Shown here: piece after piece, positions 1-18,616 of the stretch | Position numbering within the stretch: position 1 is the stretch's first letter | How the letters are laid out: each line of letters begins with the position of its first letter | NCBI GenBank assembly: GCA_022376465.1 | Contig: JACDTU010000002.1 | Span: 186,001-250,000 of the forward strand | Reading direction: 5' to 3' | Length of the DNA: 64,000 nucleotides | Origin: Cubamyces lactineus | Lineage: Eukaryota; Basidiomycota; Agaricomycetes; Polyporales; Polyporaceae | Position numbers and translations under genes: made by a program | The notes under the pieces: generated by a model | What the model saw: only the letters and a program-made list of their open reading frames with translations | Told to the model about the DNA's origin: nothing | The model's database searches: none

Positions 1-2
1 GC

Positions 3-869
3 ACGGTTGGTGTCGAAGACTCTCATCTGGTAGACCACTCCCGGCACCCCGATGTCAACCAGTTGCTCCGTGCGCTCCTCACCAACCCTATCCCAGTCAT
101 CAATGCCACCGAGCGAGGCTTGCAGTACTTCCTTAGAGAATATCGATGCCTCTACAATGAGCAACGGGAACTGGACGCACTGGAAGGGAACCTTGTTGAC
201 GCAGCTGACATCGCAGAGGACGCTCTAGACGCTCATCATGAGGCGTTTGGTGAAGAAGAGGAGCAATGGCAAGTCTCGGATTACGACATCGCAGAACGGC
301 AGGCGCGCGCCCTCGAAAACGTCGGGCACCATGCCCACGAGTTACGGAGGTTGGCAAGACACTCTTTGAACACCACTCGACGGCTCGCCCGGACTACGCG
401 CACGTGGAGGAACTTCCTCATACAAACATTCGAACTCCCCGCATTCCGTGCAAGGATGGCGCCACTGGCCTCGGTCATCAACGACGCGGCCCCACCTCCA
501 GGAGAACTCCCAGCTGCGGCAAGAAGAGTGCCCGGCGAAGCCCGACGCCAAGGGACCTATCTGCCCTTGTTCCACACCAGAGTCTCCGCAGGAAGCCGTC
601 GGCCCCGTGATCCATCCCCCGACGAGCGTAACGTAAGAGCTTGAAGAGACACCTCGCCCGCCCCAATGGACGCTTCGCCAGCCCGACCTGAGTCCCCGCC
701 GTCCCTCCACCCTATTGGCCGCAGCTGCCTAGTCTGTGGGTCGCCCGATCACGAGTACCTGCGGTGCCAAGACTGGCGATGTGTCTGGTGTCGCGCCACC
801 GCCCCTGGCCATCACCCGTGGGAGTGCCCTCTGCGCCCAGAAGACATGGATGAGCGGTTCACGAGTTGA
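3..869 (+). pseudogene. gag-like frame with C-terminal zinc knuckle, split by one TGA
   Basis: The frame is open from the left edge to a TGA at 642-644 and then continues in the same frame to a stop at 867-869. The first part (about 213 residues) is rich in Arg, Glu and Ala and looks helical; I do not recognise it by name. The part after the TGA contains CLVCGSPDHEYLRC, an exact CX2CX4HX4C zinc knuckle as in retroelement nucleocapsid proteins, followed by a second Cys/His cluster (CVWC, HHPWEC). A single CGA-to-TGA change would restore one continuous frame, matching the decay seen elsewhere in this window. A programmed stop readthrough is the alternative. The gag assignment rests on the knuckle and on the adjoining LTR. 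Confidence 0.55.
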
Positions 870-907
870 GCTGGATACTCCGCTGATGGAACAGCGTAGA
901 AGCATAC

Positions 908-915
908 GAAGGGGG
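908..915 (+). other. putative polypurine tract
   Basis: The purine run GAAGGGGG ends 3 bp before the LTR. Its place fits the plus-strand primer site of an LTR retroelement and sets the element's orientation. Confidence 0.5.
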
Positions 916-918
916 TAA

Positions 919-1353
919 TGTTACGACGCTCACTGTGTCACGGTCACGAAGTTTCCTTTTCCTTCCTCCTTGCGCTCCCACTATGCCACGTCATCTTTTC
1001 CCACACCACGTCATCCTTTCCCGTGCCACGTCATCCTCGTTCCCACCGATTCCACGGTTGTTGTATTCCTAGCCTATCCTGTTTTGCCACGTCATCGCCA
1101 CATCACCTGTATTCCCAGCCCTGACTCTACGTAGTTATACTGGACTCTCACGGTACGTGGCGCCTACGTGGCGCTGACGTGTCTATGCCTCCTTTCCTGT
1201 ATTTAAGACCGGAGGATCCACTCGGGATCCTCAGCTCGACCTGGTTATCCATTGCCTATTCCTCTGAACCTCTACTCGACTCGAACTACTGGAGACCTCT
1301 GGTCCGATCCCTAGGACGTCGCTTGCTGTGACCGATCTAGGCTCGTCGTAACA
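919..1353 (+). repeat. 3' long terminal repeat (435 bp)
   Basis: The ends TGTTACGACG and CGTCGTAACA are perfect 10-bp inverted matches. A TATA-like TATTTAAG lies near 1200. The U3-like half carries repeated ACGTCATC motifs (separate entry). The LTR stops flush against the inverted repeat of the neighbouring transposon, so it probably inserted into that repeat. Confidence 0.75.
986..1096 (+). promoter_or_regulatory. four CCACGTCATC motifs in LTR U3
   Basis: Identical 10-mers CCACGTCATC start at 986, 1006, 1026 and 1087, the first three spaced exactly 20 bp apart. The reverse complement GATGACGTGG resembles ATF/CREB-type bZIP sites. The place upstream of the TATA-like box fits a retroelement enhancer; function is inferred. 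Confidence 0.45.
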
Positions 1354-1469
1354 TTCAGAATATACCTGAGGATATTCCGAGCGCTCTCTACCCGAGAGGC
1401 GGTAATTCTCACCAGACCCGGTATTCTCGCCAGACGCGCTGGCTCATTTCTGAAGTTCTCGGGCGGAAT
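1354..1469 (+). repeat. left terminal inverted repeat of the KDZ element
   Basis: Starts TTCAGAATATACC and matches the reverse complement of 16729-16844 over 116 bp without gaps. The two differences (CTCG/CTCA and TTCT/TTCC contexts) are both CpG-type transitions. Its outer edge touches the LTR. Confidence 0.8.
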
Positions 1470-1722
1470 TGGGAGGTCAACTAGAGCGGGGGTTTGAATT
1501 AAACTGGACATGGTAAGGTACAGGACATGGTCGCAAAACAGAGACCCAGATCATAGCAGCACAGCAAACAAGACAGCATAGCAGCACAGCGAGAACATAG
1601 CTAGTACGGTGGATGAGAATGGTTACGCGCAGCGGGGTTTCTTGCGGGGTGGCTCCTCCAGGGCAGACACATCACCTCTAGAGTGGAATGATTAGCAACA
1701 ACAGTGTAGAAATAGGCAAGAC
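1470..1722. other. non-coding stretch inside the element
   Basis: This lies between the left inverted repeat and the 3' end of the large minus-strand gene. It includes an AT-richer part with loosely repeated CATAGCAGCACAGC-like words near 1553-1592. I see no gene. Confidence 0.4.
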
Positions 1723-4659
1723 TCACGGGTCTTGATGTGCAGGCAAGGCAGCCATGGACTGGACTACCCAACGCACGTCAGCTACTCCAGCTAACCAGTC
1801 TTCTAAGGTAGAGTTGGACTCTGCGTCCCTCCACCACACCAGGGAGAGCAGAACAATGAGTAAGCCATTCTTCCCGGGGGCCACCAACGCGCCCCAGTCT
1901 CCAATACCGCCAGGAACAGGCCGGCCGCGCTCGTTGCAAATTCGCCAGGATGGTTGAAGTGCAGACCACCATTTCCACCATGACTCACCGTACCCCTTCA
2001 CGTTGCTGATGGGGAGTGGTCGCTGGAGGTTACGCCGGAGGACACGCAGCCAATGACCGACTTCGCCCGGACGGTGTTCGGTGCTGAGACCTTTAGGCTG
2101 GATTACAGATTGTCAGCTGATATTTACTGCAGGCTGTAGAAAATACACACGGAGGTTTTCCACTTGTAGTTACGCTCAATGATTGTCCACCACTCAACCA
2201 CACGCATGAAATCTGGGCCAAATTGTTTGGCCTCCATATACGTGTATGCCTCGCGCACCCAGGAAGGCCAGCCGCCCTTGTCCAGGAGCAGGGGGCAATT
2301 CAGATCTGGCATAGAAGTTGTCGTGGTTGTTGGCATCCCCAACGTCGTGGACAGATGGGCAGGAGGCGGAGACGCAGCGGGTAGAGACGCAGTGGCAGAC
2401 GGAGACTCAGTGGGCAGAGACGCAGACGGAGACTCAGTGGGCGGAGACGCAGACGTAGCGGACGGAGGTGGGGACGTGGACGGAGGTGGAGACACAGCGG
2501 GTGGAGACTCAGCAGGCGGAGACACAGACGTAGCGGGCGGAGGCGGAGACGCAACGGACACAGACGCAGCGGGTGGAGACTCGCTGGACAATCGGAATGG
2601 GGAGGACGAGGCTTGCGTAGAGTTGTCAGGAGATGGCGCACTACCCCCACCACACGGTTCTCCGTGGCCAGCGACATTTGCCGGTTCTCCGTGGCCAGCG
2701 ATGTTTGCCAGCCGCTCTGAAGTACGACGCGGGGTAGATTCTGAGCTAGACGAATCAGAGCTTCGATGGCGCTTGGACTTGCCCCCCCCTGCCTTTCCTT
2801 GCTGACTGAGAGCAGTACGGACGGCGGCAGTTGCACTGGGATGGAGTGGGATGAGCATGGTGCCGGTGGAGGACATCCCGGCGAAGAGCTCTGCCGCCCG
2901 TACACGGCTGGAGATGGTTTCGCGGTCGAAATCACTGAGTAATGCAAGATGGTACAGCTCAGCACGCCTGGTTGAAGGGCTCCTAAGCAAGAGCTGGCGC
3001 TTCACAGCGCCGTTAAGCCCTAGCTCTTCTGGGTCTGGCGTGCTGCGCTCATCCTCTTCGGATTCTTCCCCCAGCTCTTCCGTAGATGCGTCGTCAAACT
3101 CCACCCCACCTCCCCCATCGCCTCCATTGCTGCGCTCACCGTCGCGCCCTCCGTTGTGCTCGCCGTCGTGCTCTTGGATGTGCTCGTTGTCGCGCTCGTC
3201 ATCACCCCAGGCAGGATCTGTGGAAGATTCGCTGCTGCTCTCAGAATCATCCGAGGCATCTCCCCCCAACCTTGGCGCACGATGCTTGCTGGGGGATCGC
3301 GCAGAAGAACCGGCAGATTGCTGGGGACTTGGTGACGCAGGTATGGGAAGAGTGGGGGCGGAGGGGAGATTGACCGGAGAGGGGACCGGCGGCAAAGAAC
3401 TTGCAGATGTCCGCATGTCAGTGAGCAGCTGCATCGGACTCGTGCATGCGGACCGGGAGAGGCCCTCTGAGCGTCCAGTTAGTAATTGCTAGGATGCATG
3501 AATAGAACCCGATGCTCACCTGCAGTATTTCCGAGGAAGGACGAGAAGCAACTCATGACGTCGCACTTGAATTTGGCCTTTTCGTACACATGCCAGGGCA
3601 CTGGTACCAGTCCAGCTGTTTTTCCAGCAGTGACACTAGTGATTGTGAGCATGAGAATCATTAGATAAGAATTGAACGGCAACGTACATTTTGATTTGGT
3701 TGCCGGTTGCATGGGGTAGCCCAGCGAGGAGTGTGATATAGAACCCAGTCTGCTCATGCAGGCGCGTTAAGAGGGGCTGCACGATAGAGGTGAACTTCTG
3801 TCGCGCCCTGACGAGAAGTTAGCAGAGGTCGGCGTGACAAGCGAAACAGGAATACTCACTCACTTTGTGTTAGCGGCGAGGGGGCAGGCTGCTCCTCCTG
3901 GGCCTCATATGCAGCCTTCTCGATCGCCTGCATTTCCACACATTCTGCAAGGACCGCCGCGCGATACTCCTCGGTCTCCTGCTTGAGTAAGTCGATGGCG
4001 ACCTGGGATCGCAGGGCGGGCATGTGTGTTCCCAGGGTGTTCTCAAGTACGCGTCGTCCTTCGACCACTTGGTCAATCTCGGGCTTCTTCTTCGACATGT
4101 ACAGTTGCCAAGGGGCGAGTTGGCGGGGAGGAGGTGGCGCAGAGCCATGGTCGTGACTGAGCTCGGCAAGCACTTCTGCCCATGGGTTCCGGTCCTGTAC
4201 TCGGTCGCGGACATAGCGAAAGTGTCGCTTGATGGCCTGTCCAAGTTGTGAGTGACACGCATTGCATCAGTAACATAGACGTACTGTAACAATTTTATCT
4301 AACGTCTTGCCCTTCTCCTTGTGCTGGTCCTCTGTGAAGTCGTCTTCGTTTGGCAGTGGCCAAGCGGACTCGGTTGGCTCTTCTTTCAGAGGGACGGTGT
4401 AGGGGAACTGTTTCCAGTACGCTTTGAAGAACGCCTTCCAGAAGGTGTTCTGATCAGTTCGTGCGTCCTTTCCGAGCTTGTTGAATTCGGGCTGGTACTC
4501 CTCGAATAGGGCCAGTCGCCCCTTGCTGAAGGATCCTGGGTGGCCGGGTTTGCCCCCCTTCTTCGGTCGCTTTGACTTGCGACGCTCTCGTGTGGCCGCC
4601 GAGCTGGTATACCGTGGGCCTGAACAGTCGACAAACTCGATGTCATCGGGTTCGGACAT
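1723..4659 (-). CDS. large KDZ-element cargo protein of unknown function
   Basis: Six exons join in phase: 4659-4285, 4236-3860, 3807-3688, 3635-3520, 3466-2151 and 2097-1723, giving 892 residues without a break. The N-terminal third is basic and includes FWKAFFKAYWKQFPYT; the middle has FYITLLAGLPHATGNQ and WHVYEKAKFKCDVMS. A long acidic and Ser/Pro-rich stretch follows, with about 15 imperfect SPPxE/SPPP repeats. The C-terminus is a compact Trp-rich block (SWWKWWSALQPSWR, GDWGALVAPGKNGL, LSLVWW). I recall similar proteins from mushroom genomes near KDZ transposons but know no function. The start ATG at 4659 was chosen as the first Met before the conserved-looking region. The intact frame beside a broken TET gene suggests selection or recent activity. 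It could be an accessory transposition factor. Confidence 0.65.
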
Positions 4660-4997
4660 GTCGCCGAGAATGGTCAGAATGCAGCCACAGGAAGAAGGCA
4701 GGAAGCAACAGGTACAGAGGAAGCGTCGAGCTTCGCTGTCAACCAGCGCTAAGTCCATACGAGCGTTTCGTACTTTGCCATTCACCACCATCCACGAGCG
4801 CTTCTCACCCACCGGCTCTCAGCTCCACTCTCCCACACACGACGACCTCCTTACGTCTCTCAGATCCACCCTCCCACACACTTCGACCCTATCACCGCCG
4901 ATATCGCGGGAAACATGCCCCCGCCAGCCTATCCCCATCGCTATATCTAGTCACCTTGGATTATACGCTGTCGACATCAAAGGACCCACGGTTCAAG

Positions 4998-5648
4998 ATG
5001 TCGCCCTCACCAGAGCTATTGCGCGACTGCGATATGGTTGCGGGAGCCTTAGGAGTCACCCTGAGGCTCGATGCAGAAGGCATCCCCATCCCGATTGGCG
5101 AGAAAGAGGACAGGGGCCATGTCTACGTTGTATGGGTGGGGCGCGGAATTGGGCTATTTTACAACTGGTGAGTGCGGGGTCGTACCGACACGGTCCTTTG
5201 CTGACTGTGCCAACACAGGGGCCTCACACACGCAATGGTATGTGGCTTCAGCGGCAGCGCACACAAGAAGTACAACAGCCTGGAAGGCGCCTTGCAAGGT
5301 TGGATAGAGGGGCCGACCCAGATGGCCGGCTCCTGGCGCATTCCACAGCCTTGCCCTCCCATTCTGACCGAACGCTCACGACCGGAGGCAAAGCTGCCCC
5401 AATCCCCTGATCAGCCCCATCGATCTTTACCTCCCGAAGTCTCCGTCCTGCCAGCCAAGGCTGGCCCTCGCGCCCTAGCTATAGCTGCGCAAACTTGGGC
5501 TGCTCAGTCTGAGGACGCCTTTTGGGACAACCACAACGGCAACAGCCACGTCGACCCCAAGAGCATCAACGCCGGCACCAGCGCCGGCGTGAATGGCGTC
5601 GACGACGATGACGACGACAACGAATGGGACAACTACTACGACATTTAG
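4998..5648 (+). CDS. RNase H1 N-terminal-like (hybrid-binding) domain protein, gene 1
   Basis: Two exons (4998-5167, 5219-5648) give 199 residues. Residues about 39-75 read HVYVVWVGRGIGLFYNWG...VCGFSGSAHKKYNSLEGAL (shown in part), the pattern of the RNase H1 N-terminal/viroplasmin domain: YVVW-G, G(L/I)-Y-W, V-GF, KK(Y/F)-S-EA. That domain binds RNA:DNA hybrids or dsRNA in RNase H1. No RNase H catalytic domain follows; the tail is Pro-rich and then acidic, with a DDDDDD run before the end. It is divergent from the large minus-strand gene and 49 bp upstream of a second gene of the same type. A role in handling hybrids during element replication or silencing is a guess. Confidence 0.65.
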
Positions 5649-5696
5649 GAGCCACTATCCACCTCCAGCCCTCCCCCCTCCCCCACACCACGAGCG

Positions 5697-6280
5697 ATGC
5701 CATCGCCCAACGTCTCCTCTGACAGCGAATTGTCATTCTGTAGTTTGGAAGCCGTCCGCTTCGCGTCGATGCTCACCGATGGGACGATTTCTCCTTGGAC
5801 CATCAACACCCCCCCGATGTCCTCGCCCGCAGCCCAATCTAGCACCTTCTCTTCGCCCGTCGGCGCCCACCGCCGCGCACCCAACTCGCTCAACCCGCCC
5901 AAGCTTAGCCAACCGACCCCGACGAGCCCTCAGGTCCACAGCAGGATCAACGACGAGCGCCTTGAGCGGCTGGCTCGCATGAACGCCTTGGCTGCGAAGG
6001 ATCGTAAATGTTACGTTGTCGTTCGTGGCAACCGCCCTGGCGTTTACTTCACCATGTAAGCGCCAATCTGTCCATGCATCGCGTATACTAACCAGTACTC
6101 CACAGCAACATGGCGCTGGAGATGCTTGGCGGGAAGCCCAGCATGAAGTTGGTGCGCTTCTTCTCCCTCTCCGACGCCTGCTGGTATTTCGTTCAGGAGT
6201 ACATGGAGGACCGCGTGGGCGTGCCTGTGCTTCAAGAGGAAGAGGATGGGTACGGCGACGAGTGGAAGCCAGCTCGGTAG
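5697..6280 (+). CDS. RNase H1 N-terminal-like domain protein, gene 2
   Basis: Two exons (5697-6055, 6106-6280) give 177 residues. The N-terminal half is Ser/Pro-rich and probably disordered. The C-terminal part has CYVVVRGNRPGVYFT, then a KLVRFFSLSDACWYF block, which follows the same YVV-RG--PGVY and RF-SL-eA pattern as gene 1 but is more diverged. The intron falls inside the domain right after the Y-(F/Y) motif in both genes, which supports common origin. The tail is acidic (EEEDGYGDE). It starts 48 bp after the stop of gene 1. Assignment to the hybrid-binding fold is weaker than for gene 1. Confidence 0.55.
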
Positions 6281-6329
6281 ATATGCACTTGTATTACGGA
6301 TGTTCTCGATGCAATCTCAATGGTTCGGT

Positions 6330-7126
6330 TCATGCTTCAGTATCTAAGTACACCTGCAGCACGACAGTCATGTACTGCATCTTCCAGACCACAGCAGTGA
6401 GATGTCTCCACATCATTGCGCCTGCCCTGGAGGACAAACTGCACATCCAACCGTCGCTGATGAAAACCTGTATCTGCTCTAGGATCATGTCCCCTTCACG
6501 GAGCCATGCGCCCTTCTCACTCATCCATTCCTCCCAAGCTCCTTCATCGAGCTTCGCGGCGGCGAATTCGTCCTTAAATGCCGCAACATACCCATCCAAA
6601 TCGTCCGTGTATCCCCACGCTTTAATCCTGGCGTTGAGATTGGTGAGGACCTCCACAAGCGCGGTGTTCGGCGTGACTAGGATCGGAATTGGTGAGCCAC
6701 CTCTGCACGCCCCTCCATTGTCAGCGGCCATCCAAGTATACGCTCACAGACATACCTTGTAGGAATTGGGGCATCGTCCTCTAACCAGTCCCCCTCGTCC
6801 CCTGCGCCGTTGCTCCCTTGGGGCTCCAGCTCTGGCTCTGGCCCATCAGGCGACATTTCCTCCCCTCCTTCCTCAGTGACTGCAACTGCATGGGCGCTGG
6901 CTGCAGCGTCTGTACCACCACCTATCACCGGTACAGATATCCCTGCTTGTGAAGCTTTGCGCCTGCAAGGGGTAAGTGGATTGATTGAGCGTGCAGATGC
7001 GTACAGATTAATGACATACTGCTTTCGTTTCAGGTGGTACCGTTGATTCCTCAGGCGGCGTAGCTCGGTCTGACGCACCTGCTTCTCCATCTCCTCTGCC
7101 TCGGTAAGTACTTTCTTTCTCGCCAT
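6330..7126 (-). CDS. small element-encoded protein of unknown function
   Basis: Three exons (7126-7020, 6962-6756, 6702-6330) join in phase to 228 residues. The N-terminus is strongly basic and helical (MARKKVLTEAEEMEKQ, then RRLRNQRYHLKRKQ), like a DNA-binding basic region but without a clear leucine zipper. The middle is acidic and low in complexity. The C-terminal half has a folded look (ALVEVLTNLNARIKAWGY, AAFKDEFAAAKLDEGAWEEW). A possible extra donor near 6437 could shorten the end. It is convergent with the second hybrid-binding gene (50 bp apart). I do not recognise the family. Confidence 0.5.
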
Positions 7127-7382
7127 ATTCTAGGAGTTAAGATGCCAGATGCCAGTAGGTCAGAGGCGTGGGGCAAGGAGAGATATTGAACAAGGGTAAG
7201 ATGCCTCTGGCCCCATCTTACTGCGTCTTAACATCCACTCACCAAATCTCACGCCTTGCCACGTCTGATCGTCTTATTGTATGGGGCGCCTGACCGTCTG
7301 ATCTCGCATCTTCCCGCACCACCCCATCTTACAGCATCTTCCAACACGTTATACGTCTTACTATGCCACCATATGTTGCAAC
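7127..7382 (+). repeat. degenerate CATCTTAC/CGTCTTAC repeats, left of palindrome
   Basis: Words of the form (C/G)(A/G)TCTTA recur on the plus strand, for example near 7206, 7220, 7266, 7328 and 7357. The same word, in the same orientation, is dense right of the palindrome. So the palindrome appears to interrupt one repeat tract. No gene is seen here. Confidence 0.5.
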
Positions 7383-7557
7383 AATAATGCATTATGAACA
7401 GGTAGTTCCCCTACACCGTTATACAACTAAACCTGGCTGGTTCCTAATACTTTACGAACGCCCGGGGTTTCCGGGATAGCCTCCATAGGTCCGGCTTGGC
7501 TTCTCAGCTTCCTTCCTAATATGGTAGGTGTCCCCGGCAGGCCCTTTCTCCCGATCT

Positions 7558-7800
7558 GGGCGCTTTTTTCGGCGCTTTTTTCGGGCTTTTTGGGCGCTTT
7601 TCTGGGCGCTTTTCCCACGCTTTTCTGGGCACTTTTCTGACGCTTTTCTGGGCGCTTTTCTCGCGCTTTTCTGGGCGCTTTTCTGACACTTTTTGGGCGC
7701 TTTTTCAGCTACTATCTGGGCGCTTTTTTGTCAATGATCTGGGCGCTTTTTGGCTACTATCTGGGCGCTTTTTGGGCGCTTTTTTGCGTCCAAATAGGGT
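7558..7800 (+). repeat. tandem GCGCTTTTCTGG-type minisatellite, left arm
   Basis: About 19 degenerate copies of a 10-14 bp unit, GGGCGCTTTT(T/C)(C/T)..., stand head to tail. Variants replace GCGC by CACG, GACG or CGCG. The unit is not coding in any frame I trust. Its mirror copy lies at 9756-9998. Confidence 0.8.
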
Positions 7801-8704
7801 AGATATATTCTACACCTCCCTGCACCCCCCCTCTGGGGCTCTATTAGGGCACCCTGTTGGGCTAAAAATATGTATAATATGTATGTGTATGCTGTAGTAT
7901 ATCTCTGTGTGCATAGGCATAGAATAGGGCAGGGAAAGTAGCCTAAAAATGCGACCCCAGGGCAGGGGCCACCAGGAGGGGACCACTGCAGGGTGGCTGG
8001 GCTGTCATCCTCTGGGCCAATTCCTATGAGTAGTATATCATTCAAAAGGTGCTTGAAAGGGCTTTCCAACGCATATTTTTTCAGGAGGAACCATGCAGTA
8101 TTGGCAGAGATATAGACCATCGCATTTTCGCCAAAAATGGCCATTTTGTTTCCTTTGTTACTCTGCACCCAGGGGTCCCCTTATGTTGCCCTTGGTACCG
8201 TTGGATTCGCGTTTTTATGGGCTTTCTAACAGTAGTAAATACATGAAATTCTGACCACATGCATTGTCGCCCTCCTCCTGCCCCTCCCCCACTTACCCAC
8301 CTCATAGCTCCTGCAGTTCTTGGTCTTTCTCTGTGAAGTCTTTTGATACTTGGAGTATACATACAGAACTATGTATTTATTGCTTTTTACGCCCTAATAT
8401 GGCCTATCCCCAATGGAATCCATCTAGGTGCATTTTCGCACTTTTTAGATTCTTCCCTCCATATCTCTGCACCCAGAGTGGATATTGCCTTCGTTCTTTT
8501 TGCATTTTGTGCCTAGACAGCGCTACTACATGTCTGTAGAAGCTCATCCTTACCGAATGCAGCGATCAGAATTGAGCTCCTTATCAGCTGTAGCAGGCAG
8601 ATCCTGTTTTGGCTTACATCCAGGATATTATTTTTTAATCAGATGGTACATTCATATTCTACTCGTTGATAGCTACCTGGCACAATAGGAATCATGAGAT
8701 TTGG

Positions 8705-8851
8705 TGAAGAATTGACTGAGCTACAGGAGATGGACCTCCTGGACACCCAAAGTTGCAGTGTGTGCAGTTGCACTGCTCCAGAAATGCATGTAGTGCACAG
8801 CTGAACAGGCAGCATTTGGTGCCTCTGGGCCATATCTCTACAGCCACTCAT
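8705..8851. other. unique spacer (hairpin loop) of the palindrome
   Basis: These 147 bp separate the arms and show no inverted match. They contain short TGCAGTTGCA-like words but no frame or RNA gene that I recognise. Confidence 0.7.
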
Positions 8852-9755
8852 CCAAATCTCATGATTCCTGTTGTGCCAGGTAGCTATCAACGAGTAGAAT
8901 ATGAATGTACCATCTGATTAAAAAATAATATCCTGGATGTAAGCCAAAACAGGATCTGCCTGCTACAGCTGATAAGGAGCTCAATTCTGATCGCTGCATT
9001 CGGTAAGGATGAGCTTCTACAGACATGTAGTAGCGCTGTCTAGGCACAAAATGCAAAAAGAACGAAGGCAATATCCACTCTGGGTGCAGAGATATGGAGG
9101 GAAGAATCTAAAAAGTGCGAAAATGCACCTAGATGGATTCCATTGGGGATAGGCCATATTAGGGCGTAAAAAGCAATAAATACATAGTTCTGTATGTATA
9201 CTCCAAGTATCAAAAGACTTCACAGAGAAAGACCAAGAACTGCAGGAGCTATGAGGTGGGTAAGTGGGGGAGGGGCAGGAGGAGGGCGACAATGCATGTG
9301 GTCAGAATTTCATGTATTTACTACTGTTAGAAAGCCCATAAAAACGCGAATCCAACGGTACCAAGGGCAACATAAGGGGACCCCTGGGTGCAGAGTAACA
9401 AAGGAAACAAAATGGCCATTTTTGGCGAAAATGCGATGGTCTATATCTCTGCCAATACTGCATGGTTCCTCCTGAAAAAATATGCGTTGGAAAGCCCTTT
9501 CAAGCACCTTTTGAATGATATACTACTCATAGGAATTGGCCCAGAGGATGACAGCCCAGCCACCCTGCAGTGGTCCCCTCCTGGTGGCCCCTGCCCTGGG
9601 GTCGCATTTTTAGGCTACTTTCCCTGCCCTATTCTATGCCTATGCACACAGAGATATACTACAGCATACACATACATATTATACATATTTTTAGCCCAAC
9701 AGGGTGCCCTAATAGAGCCCCAGAGGGGGGGTGCAGGGAGGTGTAGAATATATCT

Positions 9756-9998
9756 ACCCTATTTGGACGCAAAAAAGCGCCCAAAAAGCGCCCAGATAGT
9801 AGCCAAAAAGCGCCCAGATCATTGACAAAAAAGCGCCCAGATAGTAGCTGAAAAAGCGCCCAAAAAGTGTCAGAAAAGCGCCCAGAAAAGCGCGAGAAAA
9901 GCGCCCAGAAAAGCGTCAGAAAAGTGCCCAGAAAAGCGTGGGAAAAGCGCCCAGAAAAGCGCCCAAAAAGCCCGAAAAAAGCGCCGAAAAAAGCGCCC
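9756..9998 (-). repeat. tandem minisatellite, right arm (inverted copy)
   Basis: This is the reverse complement of the left-arm minisatellite, with units such as CCAGAAAAGCGC. The same order of variant units as in the left arm shows that the array was copied whole and did not expand separately. Confidence 0.8.
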
Positions 9999-10173
9999 AG
10001 ATCGGGAGAAAGGGCCTGCCGGGGACACCTACCATATTAGGAAGGAAGCTGAGAAGCCAAGCCGGACCTATGGAGGCTATCCCGGAAACCCCGGGCGTTC
10101 GTAAAGTATTAGGAACCAGCCAGGTTTAGTTGTATAACGGTGTAGGGGAACTACCTGTTCATAATGCATTATT

Positions 10174-10616
10174 TCTACAGCAGCAGCTGACTATGCGTCT
10201 TACATACGTCTTACATTTACATACGTCTTACATACGTCTTACATGCGTCTTACATGTGTCTTAAATCGTCTTTAATTGTCTTACATGCGTCTTACATGCG
10301 TCTTACTATGCGTCTTATAATGCGTCTTACATTGTCTTACAATGCATCTTACATTGTCTTACGATGTGTCCTACGATGCGTCTTACAACGTGTCTTAATG
10401 TGTCGATCTATCAGTATCAACGTCTTACCATGTCTTACCGTGCGTCTTATGGGCTCGCCCAGTCTGAAACCGGTCAGACTCTGTAAGACTGTGTCTTGGG
10501 TATTTCATTGTTTGGGCGGCACCAACATCGCTAGTCGACCCATGGTCGTTCTGAGGCAGTGAGAAGCTAGAATTAACGTGAACGACTACTACGGGGTGAC
10601 ATCAAGGGCAGGTACG
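10174..10616 (+). repeat. dense (G/A)CGTCTTACAT repeats, right of palindrome
   Basis: From about 10194 to 10450 the octamer CGTCTTAC and near variants (TGTCTTAC, CATCTTAC) recur about 25 times, often 10-14 bp apart. The orientation is the same as left of the palindrome. Beyond 10460 the sequence is unremarkable up to the TET-like gene. Confidence 0.7.
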
Positions 10617-12840
10617 CTAAAGTGGGCTGTTCTGCAGCTCTGACCATTTACTCAACATTCCCAGCCCCTCCTCCCAACGTGAGGGGCCCATGCTACTCAG
10701 CTCTTTGGCAGATATACCGGCGTCCTTCGCGGAGCGGAAGCTGCATGCTGCCCACCTAAATATACCGCCCGGCGAGAATTGCGTGAATGAATAGCGGCGT
10801 TCTGCAGGTGCAACGGGGGTGTTGCAGTGCCGGAGAATTGCAGAAGGGATGAGGATGGTAGAACCGGGCAGGAATTCTATTACCATTCATAAGTCGGCGA
10901 GTACTAGATGGCCGCCGTGCCAGGGATCGTAATCACTGAGGGCGGTGATGCTGCACCACCCAAACGGCAAGTTGAGGTGGTCGGTATGCATGCGAGTGAT
11001 GGTGTGGGGGCCCAAGTTGAACGTGGAGCAGCTGAATACGGAGCGTGCGAAGTTGGGTTTGAGCGAGGGGTCGCGCACACAAAGTGACGCAAGGGTTGTG
11101 CTATAGTGGGCATACATGCGCGGGGCGAACAGGCGGACGAGGCCTGCGTGGAGAGCTGGTCAGCTAAGCTCTCCAAGTCGAATGGGTTGTAGGCTTACTG
11201 CTGCCAAAATGAGCAATTTGTCGGACCGGTTTTTGCTGGAGCATGGAATCCAGAACGCCCAAGTTGGCGGGGGTATGCTTGAGGCTGCCGAGGCGCTGCG
11301 ATGAGAAAAGGCGTCAGTATGGCAGCTGTGTGCGCGGCTAGCAACGGGGTGACGTTAGTTACCTTCTGTCCTCCGCCGTACGATATGCCGAGAGATACCG
11401 CGGTGAATTGTCCACGGCGGTGTGTGGTCTGGTTGGCGTTGGCGGAGTAGGCCGCCTTGCACTGGTTGAGTAGGCCGATCATGCTGCTGTTGACCTCTGC
11501 CCAGTTGTCCTGTCGTGGGCGGCCGCCAAGAACAGCGAAGACGTGGTCCTGGTTGTCAAGGATGGGCCTAGGCGATCTATGGTTTGCCGGGCGTCAGTCG
11601 CTTGCAGAACGGTGAGGGCGCGTGCTTACATGCCGTCCCATTCCACTAGAGTATACCCGTTGGTGAGCAGCTCGTCCTTCGTCTTGGGTACGTCGTCCTC
11701 AGGTTTGCTTGGGATGCGCTTGCCGACAAATGCAGTCTTCGCCACCGGCACGTCGGCCATTCGGAGGGAGAGGTCGGTTTCGATAGGTGTCGCGCCCTCC
11801 AGATGCGCGGAGGTATAATCGATGGCCATGGCGACTGAGGCGTCGTCTAGCGATATGGAGGCTTTCAGAGCTTGGGCAGCCTCTCTTCTCTTGCGGGCAA
11901 TGGATTTGAGGGGAGGGGCGGCGGCATCGCCAAAGATCTCCGCTCAGCCTTGAGCGCGGGCATTCTGGCGATGCTGCTTTGATCTGGCCTTGTTGTGAAG
12001 GGTCTTCTTGGACTGGGCCTTGGCCGGCAGTGATTGGGCGGCGGTGAGCATAGGACTGAGTGGCGAGACCGGTGTGAAGAGAGACGGGGCTGTCGACGCA
12101 AGAGGTGATGAGGCCGTCGATGCAGAGAGAGGCGGTGTTGCAGACATGGGGGGTGACGTGACAGTCGGCGCGGGGAGGAGGGCGGTGCTGGGAGAGGGGG
12201 ATGAGGGACGTGCGATACTCACCAGGTGTTCATTGACCTCCAGGTCGACTTCATCGTCCTCGCCCTCCGCACTGCCCTCCGGTTGTGCGGCCCCCTTGTT
12301 CTCTCAAAGAGAAGCCTGTGCGTGGGCGATGAGGTCGAAATCGCCGGGGGCGTGGAGGGGTATCCCCATGGCTTGCTCCCAGGGTGAGAACGCGGCCCCG
12401 GAGCGAGTCTAATGTGTTATGGTGTTAGCTTGAGCTTGTCAGAGTGCCGTCGATACGAGTGTACTTACCTGACGAAAGGAGCCTACGAAGGCCTGGCTTG
12501 CTGAGCAATAAGAGAGGACGGTTCGTTAGCAGCTGCTGATGTGGTAGAGGGTGGAAGAGATGGGTGGCGCTAAAGTCTGCACGCTGCGCAGCTCGGCATA
12601 CGGCCCGTGTCCCAAAGGTCGGGTCCGCAGGGTTATATGCGCGAGCTGCATTAGCGCTGTGACCTGACGCATCCCCAAAGCATGCTTACATTTGGCTCTG
12701 TCCTTGATGTGTTTTTTCATAGTGTGCGGGCGATAGAGTCGTTGGAAAGGTGTGGGCTGGAGAGACGAGCTCACCTTCAAGGCGTACTTATATGTTGGTG
12801 TGGGACATGGGGAATGTTTCAAATGGGCTGGTGCCGGTGA
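10617..12840 (-). pseudogene. TET/JBP-family 2-oxoglutarate/Fe(II) dioxygenase, broken
   Basis: Enzymes of this family oxidise 5-methylcytosine in DNA. Exons read in phase at 12645-12469, 12408-11630, 11576-11363, 11295-11199 and 11143-10617; the first exon (from about 12840) is unclear and has a HTMKKHI finger-like motif. Recognisable blocks are PRPILDNQDHVFAVLGGRP, then the iron-binding HTDHLNLPFGWC (H-x-D), GGHLVLADL, ILIPSAILRHCNTP (distal His) and RRYSFTQF (2OG-binding Arg). Four lesions disable it: TGA at 12304-12306, 11944-11946 and 10887-10889, each one base from CGA, and an apparent 1-base shift near 12490. The last TGA falls between the H-x-D and the distal His, so a truncated product would be inactive. 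It is divergent from the KDZ transposase. Identification is from remembered motifs and context. Confidence 0.8.
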
Positions 12841-13060
12841 AGAGTAGCTGCGCCGTGACGATGCGTTAGCTCGTGTGACGCGACGCGTTTTGGCCTTCGC
12901 CGCCCTTCACCCGGATTTCCAAGCCGCGGCGAGTTACGCGTCCAACTCTCTGACTCTGAACTCCCGCGAGCCCGTCCCCTCCTCTACACTCAGCTACCAG
13001 ATTGCCACTGACCTTGCTCGTGTACTGCAACTAGCTGCTCAATCTTGACGCCTTGCTCTG
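12841..13060. promoter_or_regulatory. shared intergenic region between TET-like gene and transposase
   Basis: About 220 bp separate the divergent 5' ends of the dioxygenase and transposase genes, so any promoter here is likely bidirectional. There is no clear TATA box; the middle is pyrimidine-rich on the plus strand (CTCCTCTACACTC region), common in fungal promoters. Confidence 0.4.
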
Positions 13061-16000
13061 ATGGCTCGAGGTACGCGTGGACGGCGAAAGAAGCCCCCAG
13101 TGGACTACACTCTCACTGCCAACTATGAGCTCTCCCTCGACGATGACCTCTGCTCGCCAGAGAAATGCCACACTGAGTTCGTGTCCGCCGATCAACGCCG
13201 GTTATACCGCGACGTCATCGAATTGCCAAGCTCTGGTCATCTGTCCACGGTCTCGCTTCCCGAGGACGATCTGACGCTGCCTCAACTCGACGACGACGCT
13301 GCTCAGCCGCACTGCGACGATAGTCCATTCTTCACCCCGGAAACTGCCCATGCGCACGAGTACGATGGGCAGGCAGGTCTAGAAGAGCGGGCTGTGCGTT
13401 ATATCAACTCTGTGCGTGCTCACTCGTCATCGCCGCGTTCTCCGTTGTGCTGACTGTGACTTAGGACGAACCCCTCAAGTCGTGGATCCCTCGTAGAGAT
13501 GTATATCTCGACGAGTTGTTGCGCCACGATGGTCGAGGCTCATACACTCGGGCTTTGTGCCCGATGTGTCTGGACGAGGCCCCAGCCGTGATTTGCTGCG
13601 AGGATTGCTCACCTGGACCCCTTCTCTGCCCCGGATGCTGCGTTCGCACCCACATTCGTTGTCCATTTCACCGAGTTCTTGTAAGTTCCTCTTTCAACGC
13701 CGCCTTACCCACTAACTTAACCACGTACTTCAGCGATGGGAGGGTCGGGCGTATCGCAAGACATCTTTGAAAGAGCTTGGGCTAGTCATCCAGCTTGGCC
13801 ATGAGGGCGAGCTTGGCGGATGCTCCAATCCAATCCCTCGCGCCTCCTTCACTGTGGTCGACATCAGCGGCCGCCACACTGTCCCTGTGAACTTCTGTGG
13901 CTGCGACAGGGCGGGCGACGCTGGTGACCACGTCCAACAGCTCCTCCGGTACAAACTCTACCCCGCCACCGACATTGATCCCAATACTGCATTCACATTC
14001 CCTCTCCTCCAACACTACCATATCCAAAGCTTACAGGGCAAGATTTCAATGTACGACTACTATACGTTGGTGGAGCATCTCACGGACAACACCGGAACCG
14101 CAAAATGTAACGACCGCTACAAGGGCTTCATGCGTGTCGTGGCCCAATGGCGACATCTCAAGAGGCTCAAGCGAAGTGGGCATGGACATGATCCATCTGG
14201 AGTGGAGGGCACTGCGCCCGGCGAGCTTGCCGTTTGCTGTCCCACCTGCCCCCGGCCTGATATCAACCTGCCTCCGAATTGGCACTCCGTCACTGACGAT
14301 CTCAAGTGCGTGTCCCCGCCCCATTTGCAGTGCGATGCTTATTCTGTTACAGGTTCCTGTACGTGATGGCGATAGCTATTGACGCCTGCTTCCGTCTGAA
14401 GCGTCGCGCGGTCTCCAGCGAGGAGAAGGACCCGATCCTTGGCTCTGAATGGGGGTACTTCGTTGAAGATACGGAGTTCAAGGCGGTGCTGTCCGAGTAT
14501 AGCGATCAGGAGGAGGTGAGAGCCCGACATTGTAGTCTACGCTGCAGCTTTTACTTACCGCTATTTTCAGATGTTAAATTGCGTGGGCCTGTCCGCGATT
14601 GATCACGCAAATACGAAGTTCTCCAAGGGATATGCAGCAACAGGAATCGGGGCGGTGGTATGTGCTCGGCACGAGTTCTGGTTGGCAAATGGGGCCGGTG
14701 ATTTACAGAAGGGTGAGAGGTGAGTGAATATCGTCGTTGCCAAGTCAGCTATTCTCATGTATGCATAGGTACATCAATATGGATTATGTCTTCATCTCAT
14801 CTATGCGAGAGTGGCTTATTGTCAAGAAAATCGTGAGTTATGACATCGCGTGTCAGTGGTCTCGCCACATCGAGGAGCGGATTGCAATGCTCCCCTCCCA
14901 TCTCCAAATTCCGGTCCCCGAGGGCTCGATTACCTACGTCATACCAAAACTCCACCACCGCAGCCATGAACAAAAGGACCATGCTCAATACTCCCTCAAT
15001 CTGCGCCCGGGCTGTGCACGAACGGACGGCGAGGGAATTGAGCGACGTTGGTGGTGGATCCAGCCCATCGCCAACAGCACGAAGGTGATGGGCCCTGGCA
15101 TGCGTCAGGGCGTTCTGGAGGATCAATGGGGATATTCTAACTGGCGGAAGACTGTTGATCTCGGTGAGCATGGATCTTCTCTGAGTTCTCCCCCCATTAT
15201 TCATAGCCCGATGCTGCTAGTTTGGACGCTCTCATCTCGGCTGAAAGACACCATACACCAGCTTGCGGAGCACAAAACTCTTTTTGACAACCTTACCCAA
15301 ACTTTGGACCGGGCCCGCTGTGCAGAATGGGAGGAGATGGCGCAGGAATGGGAGGTCGATCCTAGCCTGCACGACGACCCCTATTTGATCGCCAACCAAG
15401 GTATGATTGCGCCATGTTGCTGCTCTTAGTCTCTAACGCCCCTCTGCAGGTTTGACCGTCAGCGAGACTGTGCAGGAGCTTTCAAGGGAGGAGCAGAAGG
15501 CTAGCGCAACACCGGGATTTATCGCAGTCCACAATGTCAGCATGCTCGGGTTCATCAATCTCGGTTTGGAGATCGAAACACAACAGTGCGTTATCTCATC
15601 AACCCACTCTGAGGTTGAGCTGACAAAGTACAGGTCCCATATCGCTGACGATGCTCGGTCCGCACCTCCAAGCAAACTAGCTGAACTCCACGAGCGGCGA
15701 ACATCTCTTCGCCGCAAGATACAACGATTCCGTGACCTGCAAGGCGTCTACATGCCCACAGCTCTACCAGTCCTCTCCGAAAATGCAGCATGCCGAACGG
15801 ACGTCGAGGAGGTGGAGAAAATCCGCCTCGGGCTGCCATCCGAGATCAACGAGAGTCGCCGAGCAATCGTCTGCAGTGCAAGGCTGGTGGAGATGGAGGC
15901 TCGCCTTCGAGAGGCTCAGTGTAGGGACACTCTGCAAGATCTTCGGAACAAGCTGCACACGATCCGCCAACTTTACAACTACAAACGCCTCAATGTCCGT

Positions 16001-16720
16001 AATCAAGGCCCGAATACCAGGGCGCGGGCTAGCATCTCTCATCAGGATGTCCGGAAGGAGCGGGCGGTGCAGAGATATCGCCGCGCGCATCAGGCAAAGC
16101 TTGCCCTCTCTGGTGCTGGGGATTGGGAGCATGAGCTGCGAGTTTTGAAGGACCACCATATCCGCGGCATCGAGGACGACGACCCACGCACCGTGGCCAA
16201 ACGGAAACGCAAGCGAGGCGACGATCCTGGCCCTGCAGAGGGTCACCGCAGGATTTCTTGGATCTGGCGTGCTGCTGACCAGGACGGCTCAGCCGGTATG
16301 ATCGACAGTCTCCGCGTTGAGTGGCTCAAGGCCCGTGCTCGCAAGATGCATTTGCAAGAAGAGGTCTCCTTACTCCCAGAGGAGATGCGTCGCGTTCTGG
16401 CGACCTACTCATACGAGCAACGAAGGTGGACCGCTCGAATCGCAGCAAGGCCGTCTGCAAGCTCCGCTCTTCGTGAGGGGCTGGTTTCGTATGCTGTCAA
16501 GCAGGCTGCCATTCGCTCTGCCATGTCAAACGTATTCCGACGGATCTGCCTGCCCGTGGCATCTGGATCATCACCTACAGTTTGCAGAGACTGGATCCTC
16601 GAGGACTGCGGTGAGGATTCTGCAGAGGTTGCAGCTGAGGAGGAGGGCGACGATTTGAAGGACTTTTTGATACTGTACCATCTGGACGGTGAGGATGTAG
16701 AGCCTCGTTACAAATGCTGA
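13061..16720 (+). CDS. KDZ transposase with N-terminal CxC2-type cysteine cluster
   Basis: Eight exons join in phase: 13061-13411, 13465-13680, 13734-14305, 14353-14515, 14571-14719, 14769-15163, 15221-15400 and 15450-16720, giving 1,098 residues; a further 48-bp intron at 15586-15633 would make 1,082. After an acidic N-terminus comes the cysteine cluster (CPMCLDEAPAVICCEDC, CPGCCVRTHIRC), then TSLKELGLVIQLGH and NFCGCDRA, the hallmarks of CxC2 proteins. The RNase H-fold core has candidate acidic residues in IDACFRLKRR, SYDIACQW and DGEGIERRW. The C-terminal third is helical and basic. No stops or shifts are seen, so the gene may be active. The stop lies 8 bp from the right inverted repeat. 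Confidence 0.88.
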
Positions 16721-16728
16721 ATGTACAC

Positions 16729-16844
16729 ATTCCGCCCGAGAACTTCGGAAATGAGCCAGCGCGTCTGGTGAGAATACCGGGTCTGGTGAGAATTACCGCC
16801 TCTCGGGTAGAGAGCGCTCGGAATATCCTCAGGTATATTCTGAA
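16729..16844 (-). repeat. right terminal inverted repeat of the KDZ element
   Basis: Inverted partner of 1354-1469 (114 of 116 identical). It contains an internal near-repeat, GGTGAGAATACCGGG then GGTGAGAATTACCG, which might serve as a transposase-binding site. The outer tip is GGTATATTCTGAA. Confidence 0.8.
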
Positions 16845-16990
16845 ATGGGTACGATGCCGAGGAGCCGTGCAGAAAAGAATTGAGCCGACCAGAGGTAAAG
16901 GCGCCTTCACTGGTGCTTTATGACACATTATGAACCCAGACGGTTTGTAATGTAACAGTGTCATCAAAGTTTAATGGTTCGTAACAGTTC
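16845..16990. other. junction between KDZ element and Gypsy fragment
   Basis: About 146 bp without a recognisable gene. If the left inverted repeat was cut by the retroelement, the outer part of the full repeat would lie here. Confidence 0.3.
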
Positions 16991-18616
16991 ATGGCTACAG
17001 CAGCTGCTGATGCATCCGCTTCTACCAGGAATGGTTTGGTGACGTCCGGCATCTGTAGCACAGGGGCCGTGGCGAAGCGGGTCTTGAGTTGGTCAAATGC
17101 TTTCTGGCATTCTGCAGACCATTCCCATTTGGCGTTCTTCTTGGTGAGTGCGTTCAGTGGTTGCGCAATTTCGGAGAAGTGGTCAATGAAGCGTCGATAG
17201 AAGTTCGCAAAGCCTAGGAATGATCGGACGTCCTTTACGGTCGTTGGTTCCGGCCAATCAAGAATTCCTTTCAGCTTGACTGGGTCCATCGCAACGCTGT
17301 TTTCCCGAATGATCATTCCCAGGTATTCCACTTCGTCTGCGTCGAAAGTGCACTTTTCGAGCTTGAGGTAAAGATTGTGTTCTCGTAAGCGTTCCAGTAC
17401 TCGGAGTGTTGGTCATCGATGGGTTTCTTCATCTCCCGAGAATATGAGGATGTCGTCCATGTAGATTACCACCCATCCTTCGTCGATCATGTCTTTGAAT
17501 ATTGAGTTCATCATGGCTTGAAAGGCAGCTGGCGAGTTGCGGAGGCCAAAGAACATAACCATCGGCTCGTATAGGCCCGAACTGGTTCGGAATGCGGCTT
17601 TCCATTGATCGCCATCCTTGATTCGTACGTTGTTGTATCCCGATCGTAGGTCCAGCTTCGAAAATATCTTGGCCCCTCGAAGCTTGTCGATTAACTCCGG
17701 GATCAGTGGTAAGGGATATTTGTTCGGGACGGTCCCTTCGTTCAGATAGCGATAGTCTTGGCAGGGTCACAACGACCTGTCCTTCTTCCCTACAAAGAAG
17801 AATGGTGATGACATGGGGGATTTTGAGGTTCTGATGTATCCTTTTCGCAGGTTCTCTCGCACGAATTCTTCTTCGGCTTCCAGTTCTTTGGGTGTTAATT
17901 GATACCGCTTGAAGTCTTTTTGTACAAAGCCTTCCTTCAGTTCGATAGCGAGATCCCATGGCCTGGCCGGTGGAAATCGCTCTGAGGCTTTCTTCTCGAA
18001 GACACTGGCGAATTCTTGGTACGCCGCCGGTAGCATCTCTTCGAATGTCTTCGGCTTCTCCTGCGCCTGTTGCTGCTGTGCCATTGCCATAGCGGGATTG
18101 ACTTTTGCTCGTATCCAGACATTGTTGGCTATTGCAAAGTGTATTCCTGTTGGTGCTTTTCGAATTTGTCCGATGCTGGGTCCTGGTCCTACGCGTACGT
18201 CATCTTCGTGTTGATGTTCACCGGTCAAAGGGTTCCCTGGTCTGGGAGCATCTCTATGCCATTCAACCATGTGTAGATGGGTCGTTTTGTCCATTTTGTC
18301 TCATAGATATGCGATCAAGAGTTCCTGGTCGTCAGGTTCTTCCTCTGGCTTGATGTCCGATGTGGTAACTCGTCCGATGTCTTCATATAGGGGTTCCTCG
18401 TCTTCATCTCCTTCTGATTCCGTTTCGCTCGCTGGGCCTTCTTCTTTCACTACTTCTCTGAGTCGTCCTGTGAATGGATTTTGATCTGGGAACCACATCT
18501 CTCTGAGATGTTCGACGACCGTCTTGACTACCTTGTCAGGGTCGATGTCCAGTGTTCCTGCTGTGAAGTCAATATTTGCATTGACTCGTTGATGCGCATG
18601 TTGCCTGTCTAGGCTC
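16991..18616 (-). pseudogene. Ty3/Gypsy pol fragment (protease-RT junction to RNase H)
   Basis: One minus-strand frame runs from about 18616 to 16991 and then into unrelated sequence. It shows [56 protein letters not shown], the catalytic [12 protein letters not shown], and [26 protein letters not shown], the usual order of a Ty3 reverse transcriptase with the start of RNase H. Three stops at 18301-18303, 17767-17769 and 17413-17415 are all TGA where family members usually have Arg or a similar residue, so CGA-to-TGA change is likely. Gag, integrase and LTRs are missing. It is a dead fragment. Confidence 0.85.

Follow-up and report, generated by a model that had tools for sequence, protein, structure and literature searches.

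The window analysed here, a stretch of 64,000 nucleotides of Cubamyces lactineus (contig JACDTU010000002.1, positions 186,001 to 250,000, below C12), harbors a transposon with genes encoding a KDZ transposase, a TET/JBP-type dioxygenase (TET) and three further cargo proteins, designated H1N, U and B. With good confidence the element can be assigned to the TET-carrying (TET+) Kyakuja type of the KDZ superfamily, cut-and-paste DNA transposons, with its five genes in conserved order. H1N is transcribed in the direction of the transposase gene, TET and B are oriented opposite to it and U lies in the direction of TET. The genes and ends of the element are as follows (window positions unless a contig, C with its number, is given):

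1354..1469, plus strand: left terminal inverted repeat (TIR), inner 116 bp; its outer 165 bp lie beyond the window at C12:179491-179655
1723..4659, minus strand: U, about 892 amino acids, six exons (joins inferred), probable HMG box
4998..6280, plus strand: H1N, one gene, 360 amino acids, two RNase H1 N-terminal (predicted hybrid-binding) domains
6330..7126, minus strand: B, small protein, basic at its start, with probably at least two exons and no Pfam match
10617..12303, minus strand: TET/JBP-type 2OG-Fe(II) dioxygenase, catalytic exons at about 10620-11593, 5' end uncertain
13061..16720, plus strand: KDZ transposase, several exons (PF18758, E=6.8e-47; CxC2 PF18803, E=3.4e-36)
16729..17009, minus strand: right TIR, 281 bp; element end ...GGCTACAGCAGCTGCTG
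17010..17016: ATGCATC, the right-hand 7-bp target duplication, its left counterpart lying at C12:179484-179490

Borders and encoded proteins

A sequence-only reading of the window had described a unit of 15.5 kb bounded by 116-bp inverted repeats, with the transposase stop 8 bp from one of them. Both repeats (1354-1469 and 16729-16844, 98% identity) and the stop at 16720, 8 bp ahead of the right repeat start at 16729, were found as described, and one mobile unit with KDZ, TET/JBP and a wider cargo is present; its borders, however, lie further outward, the left end at C12:179491, outside the window, and the right end at 17009. The genome-wide search proposed for the 116-bp repeat yielded four matches in the 36.3-Mb genome, two in the window and two at C41:267448-267564 and C41:281124-281239, which flank another copy of the same transposon with its middle lost. 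In the comparison of the C12 and C41 copies the repetition continues outward of the 116 bp, and TIRs of 281 bp which reach past the shorter repeats in both copies rule the latter out as termini. The left and right TIRs in C12 are identical at 271 of 281 positions. CA..TG termini (CACCTTTTG...CAGCTGCTG) were found in both copies, and both of the copies for which the two ends were seen are flanked by exact 7-bp target duplications (ATGCATC in C12, TGCCTAG in C41). When the window flanks are fused with a single ATGCATC, they match two related pol copies without gaps over 121 bp (73.6% and 72.7%). Without its two nested insertions, a long terminal repeat (LTR) retrotransposon and a palindrome, the element has a size of about 13.0 kb, and with both of them it measures 23.5 kb. 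What appears to be the end of a relative lies at C42:550553 (76% over 91 bp). An 8-bp target duplication, the hallmark of Zisupton elements, was considered and rejected: the window can be read as 8/8, C41 as just 7/8 (CTGCCTAG / GTGCCTAG).

The earlier assignment of the transposase to KDZ stood with the Pfam matches listed above, and that of the dioxygenase to TET/JBP could be confirmed through its relatives. The window TET protein itself gave a sub-threshold 2OG match and no Pfam match past the cut-off. From 103 relatives found, 30 were aligned, of which 11 matched Tet_JBP (PF12851, best 8e-5); two relatives carry the name 2OGFeDO JBP1/TET. The iron-binding triad HxD...H is present in the window protein as HTD and a later H, and within the alignment H188 and H241 are invariant and D190 nearly so. 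Comparison with PDB sequences gave no match, weak rows for an adenylyltransferase and a capsid protein being taken as chance. Judged by these sequence features, the predicted product belongs to the TET/JBP dioxygenases.

The two RNase H1-N-type proteins of the sequence-only reading proved to be one gene with two domains, as the NCBI model P0013 (C. lactineus, 360 amino acids), built of the window's exons, contains both domains and the copy on C5 has a single open frame from domain 1 into domain 2; two separate genes are thereby overruled. In the window H1N matched PF01693 (E=3.4e-5) and PDB entry 1qhk (E=1.5e-5). Both domains have the fold of the hybrid-binding domain of RNase H1 and are connected by a long low-confidence linker. 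Domain 1 retains Trp and Lys aligned with the human hybrid-binding surface, and domain 2 lacks the contact residues of this surface in the alignment. An RNase H catalytic domain was not seen in H1N. The protein is a predicted RNA:DNA hybrid binder.

For U, a hand-joined model of six exons gave 892 amino acids, in agreement with the length and minus strand noted before. It had been regarded as entirely unknown, which applies only in part: the structural model of its relative P0008 contains a probable helical HMG-like fold, and U probably comprises an HMG box. Neither Pfam nor PDB yielded a convincing family match for the U sequence, and no HMG family appeared among the Pfam matches of eight U members. 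The N-terminal helical region is conserved, and the C-terminal region has no resolved fold.

Recurrence of the cargo genes

TET was found at nine loci of the genome. Seven of them also carry H1N and U in a fixed order (C12, C5, C24, C40, two on C23, and C16), and outside these seven module loci no match to U or to H1N domain 1 was obtained at the search sensitivity used. B is present at five of the seven. The cargo set is therefore coherent, with TET, H1N and U recurring together in conserved order, and the wider cargo set proposed from the window is borne out at other loci. KDZ is divergent to the adjoining TET at five module loci (C12, C5, C24 and twice C23). The modules on C5 and C24 are nearly alike, and at C23:707-746 kb insertions stretch a module across 38 kb. 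Cargo genes away from the transposase, which the sequence-only reading had named as evidence against its unit, do occur, at two of the seven loci (C16 and C40), KDZ being present at the other five. TET without H1N and U was detected at C5:793611 and C30:58761, the latter with a KDZ match 7 kb off in a convergent layout.

The two sets of TET, H1N and U without a nearby KDZ match are located at C16:310784-314599 and C40:722448-726605; on C16 no KDZ match exists on the whole contig. The C40 module is decayed, with stops within the matches. On C16 the frames are mostly open, with one TAG within the U match, and this set could represent stranded or host-kept cargo.

When PF01693 was searched separately, C2, C4 and C41 were matched but no module locus was, which points to other hybrid-binding-type genes in the genome; in the window an intron interrupts H1N domain 1. 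Another KDZ transposase is located at C41:404575-404985, about 2.4 kb from a PF01693 match on the same strand (C41:407390-407512), and possibly represents a second KDZ lineage with PF01693 cargo.

In other species, matches to H1N, U and TET were compared, whereby equal-sized contigs within a species were taken as proxy for the same contig. Five of ten H1N matches were co-located with a U or TET match:

Trametes versicolor, tags 52754/52755: H1N with U or TET
Trametes sanguinea, contig 18691: TET, H1N, U
Trametes sanguinea, contig 19476: TET, H1N
Lenzites, contig 132614: TET, H1N
Cubamyces sp., contig 13489: H1N, U

For the remaining five H1N matches and for four of seven U matches the match lists contained no partner.

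Nested insertions and the palindromic family

Further features in and next to the element are the following:

1..1353: LTR retrotransposon, 3' portion, with the 3' LTR at 919-1353 (whole element C12:179661-187353, i.e., window -6339..1353)
7360..7366 and 10190..10196: left and right 7-bp target duplications ACTATGC of the palindrome
7367..10189: the palindrome, a nested element of 2823 bp with the ends CACCATATG...CAGCAGCTG, read as non-autonomous Kyakuja-type
17017..18605, minus strand: older retrotransposon pol fragment, right half; insertion target of the element
18606..18612: single TGTCTAG, paralogous empty site of copy C41 (there TGCCTAG on both sides)

The 2.8-kb hairpin that had been counted among the cargo exists, its arms (7374-8704 and 8852-10182, 1331 nt each, spacer 147 nt) being 100% complementary. 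As cargo it had to be rejected, since it has ends and duplications of its own, belongs to a dispersed family and is absent from the TET-B interval at four loci. TET and B are 3584 bp apart in the window, 811 bp at C5 and C24, 769 bp at C23 and 496 bp at C40; at all four other loci with both genes the spacing is too short for the palindrome, and the excess in the window, which approximately equals the palindrome's length, identifies it as a nested element. A search with one arm gave at least 78 genome matches at, by our count, at least 40 sites, 37 of 40 with both strands matched; as 40 of 57 candidates were scored, these numbers are lower bounds, and the ends were examined around 20 of the 78 matches. 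All six full-length copies among these share the ends CACCATATGTTGCAAC and CAGCTGCTGCTGTAGA (CA..TG), and one palindrome end differs from the right Kyakuja end at two of 16 positions. Exact 7-bp duplications flank five of the six (ACTATGC in the window, GGAGACC on C7, ACAAGTA twice on C41, TACTTGT on C5), the copy at C40:1482842 being the only one without. TACTTGT is the complement of ACAAGTA, which reduces the five duplications to three distinct targets; the three palindromes with like targets may go back to one insertion later copied or to one favoured repeat. From its ends and duplications the palindrome looks like a nested non-autonomous element mobilised by a Kyakuja-type transposase.

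The family as a whole is a high-copy one of near-perfect palindromes of 2-3 kb, with Kyakuja-type ends wherever ends were examined. Within the six copies the arms, ends included, are 97.4-99.0% alike, and 11 of 15 comparisons between copies gave lower values (94.5-96.9%), which may be a sign of arm homogenisation. At window 10301-10449, in the interval from the palindrome to TET, lies a 149-bp similarity to C5:270226-270361 whose orientation is opposite to that of the rest of the element.

The LTR retrotransposon, 7.7 kb in length, interrupts the left TIR of the window copy. Its junctions read TTCAG|TG...CA|TTCAG, i.e., a 5-bp duplication TTCAG, and it inserted very recently, because its 435-bp LTRs are 100% identical (match of 919..1355 with -6339..-5903). 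Copy C41 spans 258328 to 281404, and its left TIR is likewise interrupted, by a different LTR element at 258387-267337, whose LTRs are 99.8% alike; where the cargo would be expected, this copy has a truncated LTR element and a palindrome belonging to another subfamily, and its KDZ match contains an internal stop. A relative of the window's LTR retrotransposon lies inside this copy at 268801-275677. The paralogous empty site of C41 sits in repeated sequence adjoining the window's own copy, and the retroelement hosting the insertion in the window is presumably of the Ty3 type, judging from its motifs.

Proposed function and comparison with known systems

The most plausible mechanism for the cargo is that it likely helps the element to undo its own methylation. 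The transposase would bind the ends and move the unit, U would bend DNA and aid assembly or targeting, TET would oxidise 5-methylcytosine on the element, and H1N would bind RNA:DNA hybrids arising from element transcription and thereby keep TET (and U) on the DNA of the element itself. Borders, target duplications, gene set, gene order and H1N folds are what the analysis demonstrates; all biochemical activities, including the HMG role, are what we infer. More specifically, H1N might guide the co-encoded TET via the element's RNA:DNA hybrids, so that demethylation affects the element itself and not the whole genome; this proposal is a tentative one and, in this exact form, rather doubtful.

HMG proteins assist several recombinases, and H1N and U might accordingly serve transposition itself by bending or bridging ends or handling displaced strands, with TET alone acting on methylation. 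The HMG-like fold in U's relative and the fact that H1N and U follow transposon-type loci agree with this; on the other hand, a cut-and-paste reaction that involves DNA alone offers no evident task for a hybrid-binding fold, and H1N and U, found with TET at seven of seven loci and with KDZ at five, track TET better. We regard such a role as possible, if somewhat improbable. A caulimovirus protein with the domain of H1N suppresses RNA silencing, and H1N could in the same way shield element transcripts from small-RNA-directed methylation. PF01693 bears the caulimovirus name (Cauli_VI), and a Pleurotus Helitron carries the domain too (PMC4289320). Since, however, H1N domain 1 keeps residues aligned with the human hybrid-binding surface, a suppressor of host RNA silencing appears unlikely.

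The remaining explanations concern the unit and the origin of its genes. A 15.5-kb unit that ends at the 116-bp repeats and counts the hairpin as cargo has next to no probability left, although repeats and hairpin exist as described: the 7-bp duplications found at 17010 and at C12:179484 refute it, and a hairpin family with at least 40 sites, own duplications in five of six full-length copies and absence from the TET-B interval of four other loci speaks against it. A chance pile-up of nested transposons would fit the abundance of nested insertions (LTR element, palindrome, pol pieces), but the same order and spacing at five to seven diverged loci and partly in other species refute it, and we consider it extremely improbable. 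Chance capture of host genes, against which the recurrence at seven loci speaks, and an origin of H1N as RNase H remnant, of which the catalytic part was not seen, were rated lower.

TET-carrying fungal transposons are already known, and our analysis addresses the gap of how a mobile TET would act on its own element. H1N, whose gene family was found at seven loci in the genome, each time as a neighbour of TET, is a concrete and testable candidate for such targeting. In addition, complete borders and a five-gene layout are now defined for a Kyakuja of Polyporales, and a large palindromic family was revealed which may depend on Kyakuja-type transposases.

Fold-back and palindromic non-autonomous DNA transposons offer themselves for comparison with the latter: like them, the window palindrome consists almost entirely of inverted repeat with short tandem repeats in the arms; unlike them, it has Kyakuja-type ends and 7-bp duplications. 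The H1N domains resemble the hybrid-binding domain of RNase H1 (3bsu, 1qhk; PF01693) in fold and in Trp and Lys of domain 1, whereas H1N differs from RNase H1 by showing no catalytic domain, by two domain copies on a long linker and by a domain 2 without contact residues. The probable helical HMG-like fold of P0008 (residues 149-237) is similar to HMG-box proteins such as CIC, TFAM and HMGB; in contrast to these, U has no Pfam-level similarity and comprises, besides conserved N-terminal helices, a C-terminal part to which no fold could be assigned. An abstract of Iyer and co-workers from 2014 reportedly mentions additional proteins, among them one with a divergent HMG domain; U is, as we assume, probably this divergent-HMG protein and hence not new. 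In the open-licence literature no paper describing H1N as transposon cargo was found.

The mammalian pair of GADD45A and TET1 is a precedent for a TET tied to RNA:DNA hybrids (PMC13022674), and in two other mushrooms oxidised 5-methylcytosine was enriched in transposons (PMC8889193). According to Kojima (2025), TET+ Kyakuja have 7-bp duplications and CA..TG ends and are the only TET+ DNA transposons reported from Polyporales; escape from methylation was already proposed for them there, and the words RNase and ribonuclease are absent from its main text, i.e., the article apart from its supplements (PMC12730594). The window element resembles the TET+ Kyakuja of Agaricomycetes in KDZ transposase, TET/JBP gene, CA..TG ends and 7-bp duplications. 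It differs from the two TET+ Kyakuja families of L. bicolor, which are described as lacking terminal repeats, by its 281-bp TIRs, and from the Kyakuja described in that article by its recurrent extra cargo of H1N, B and U.

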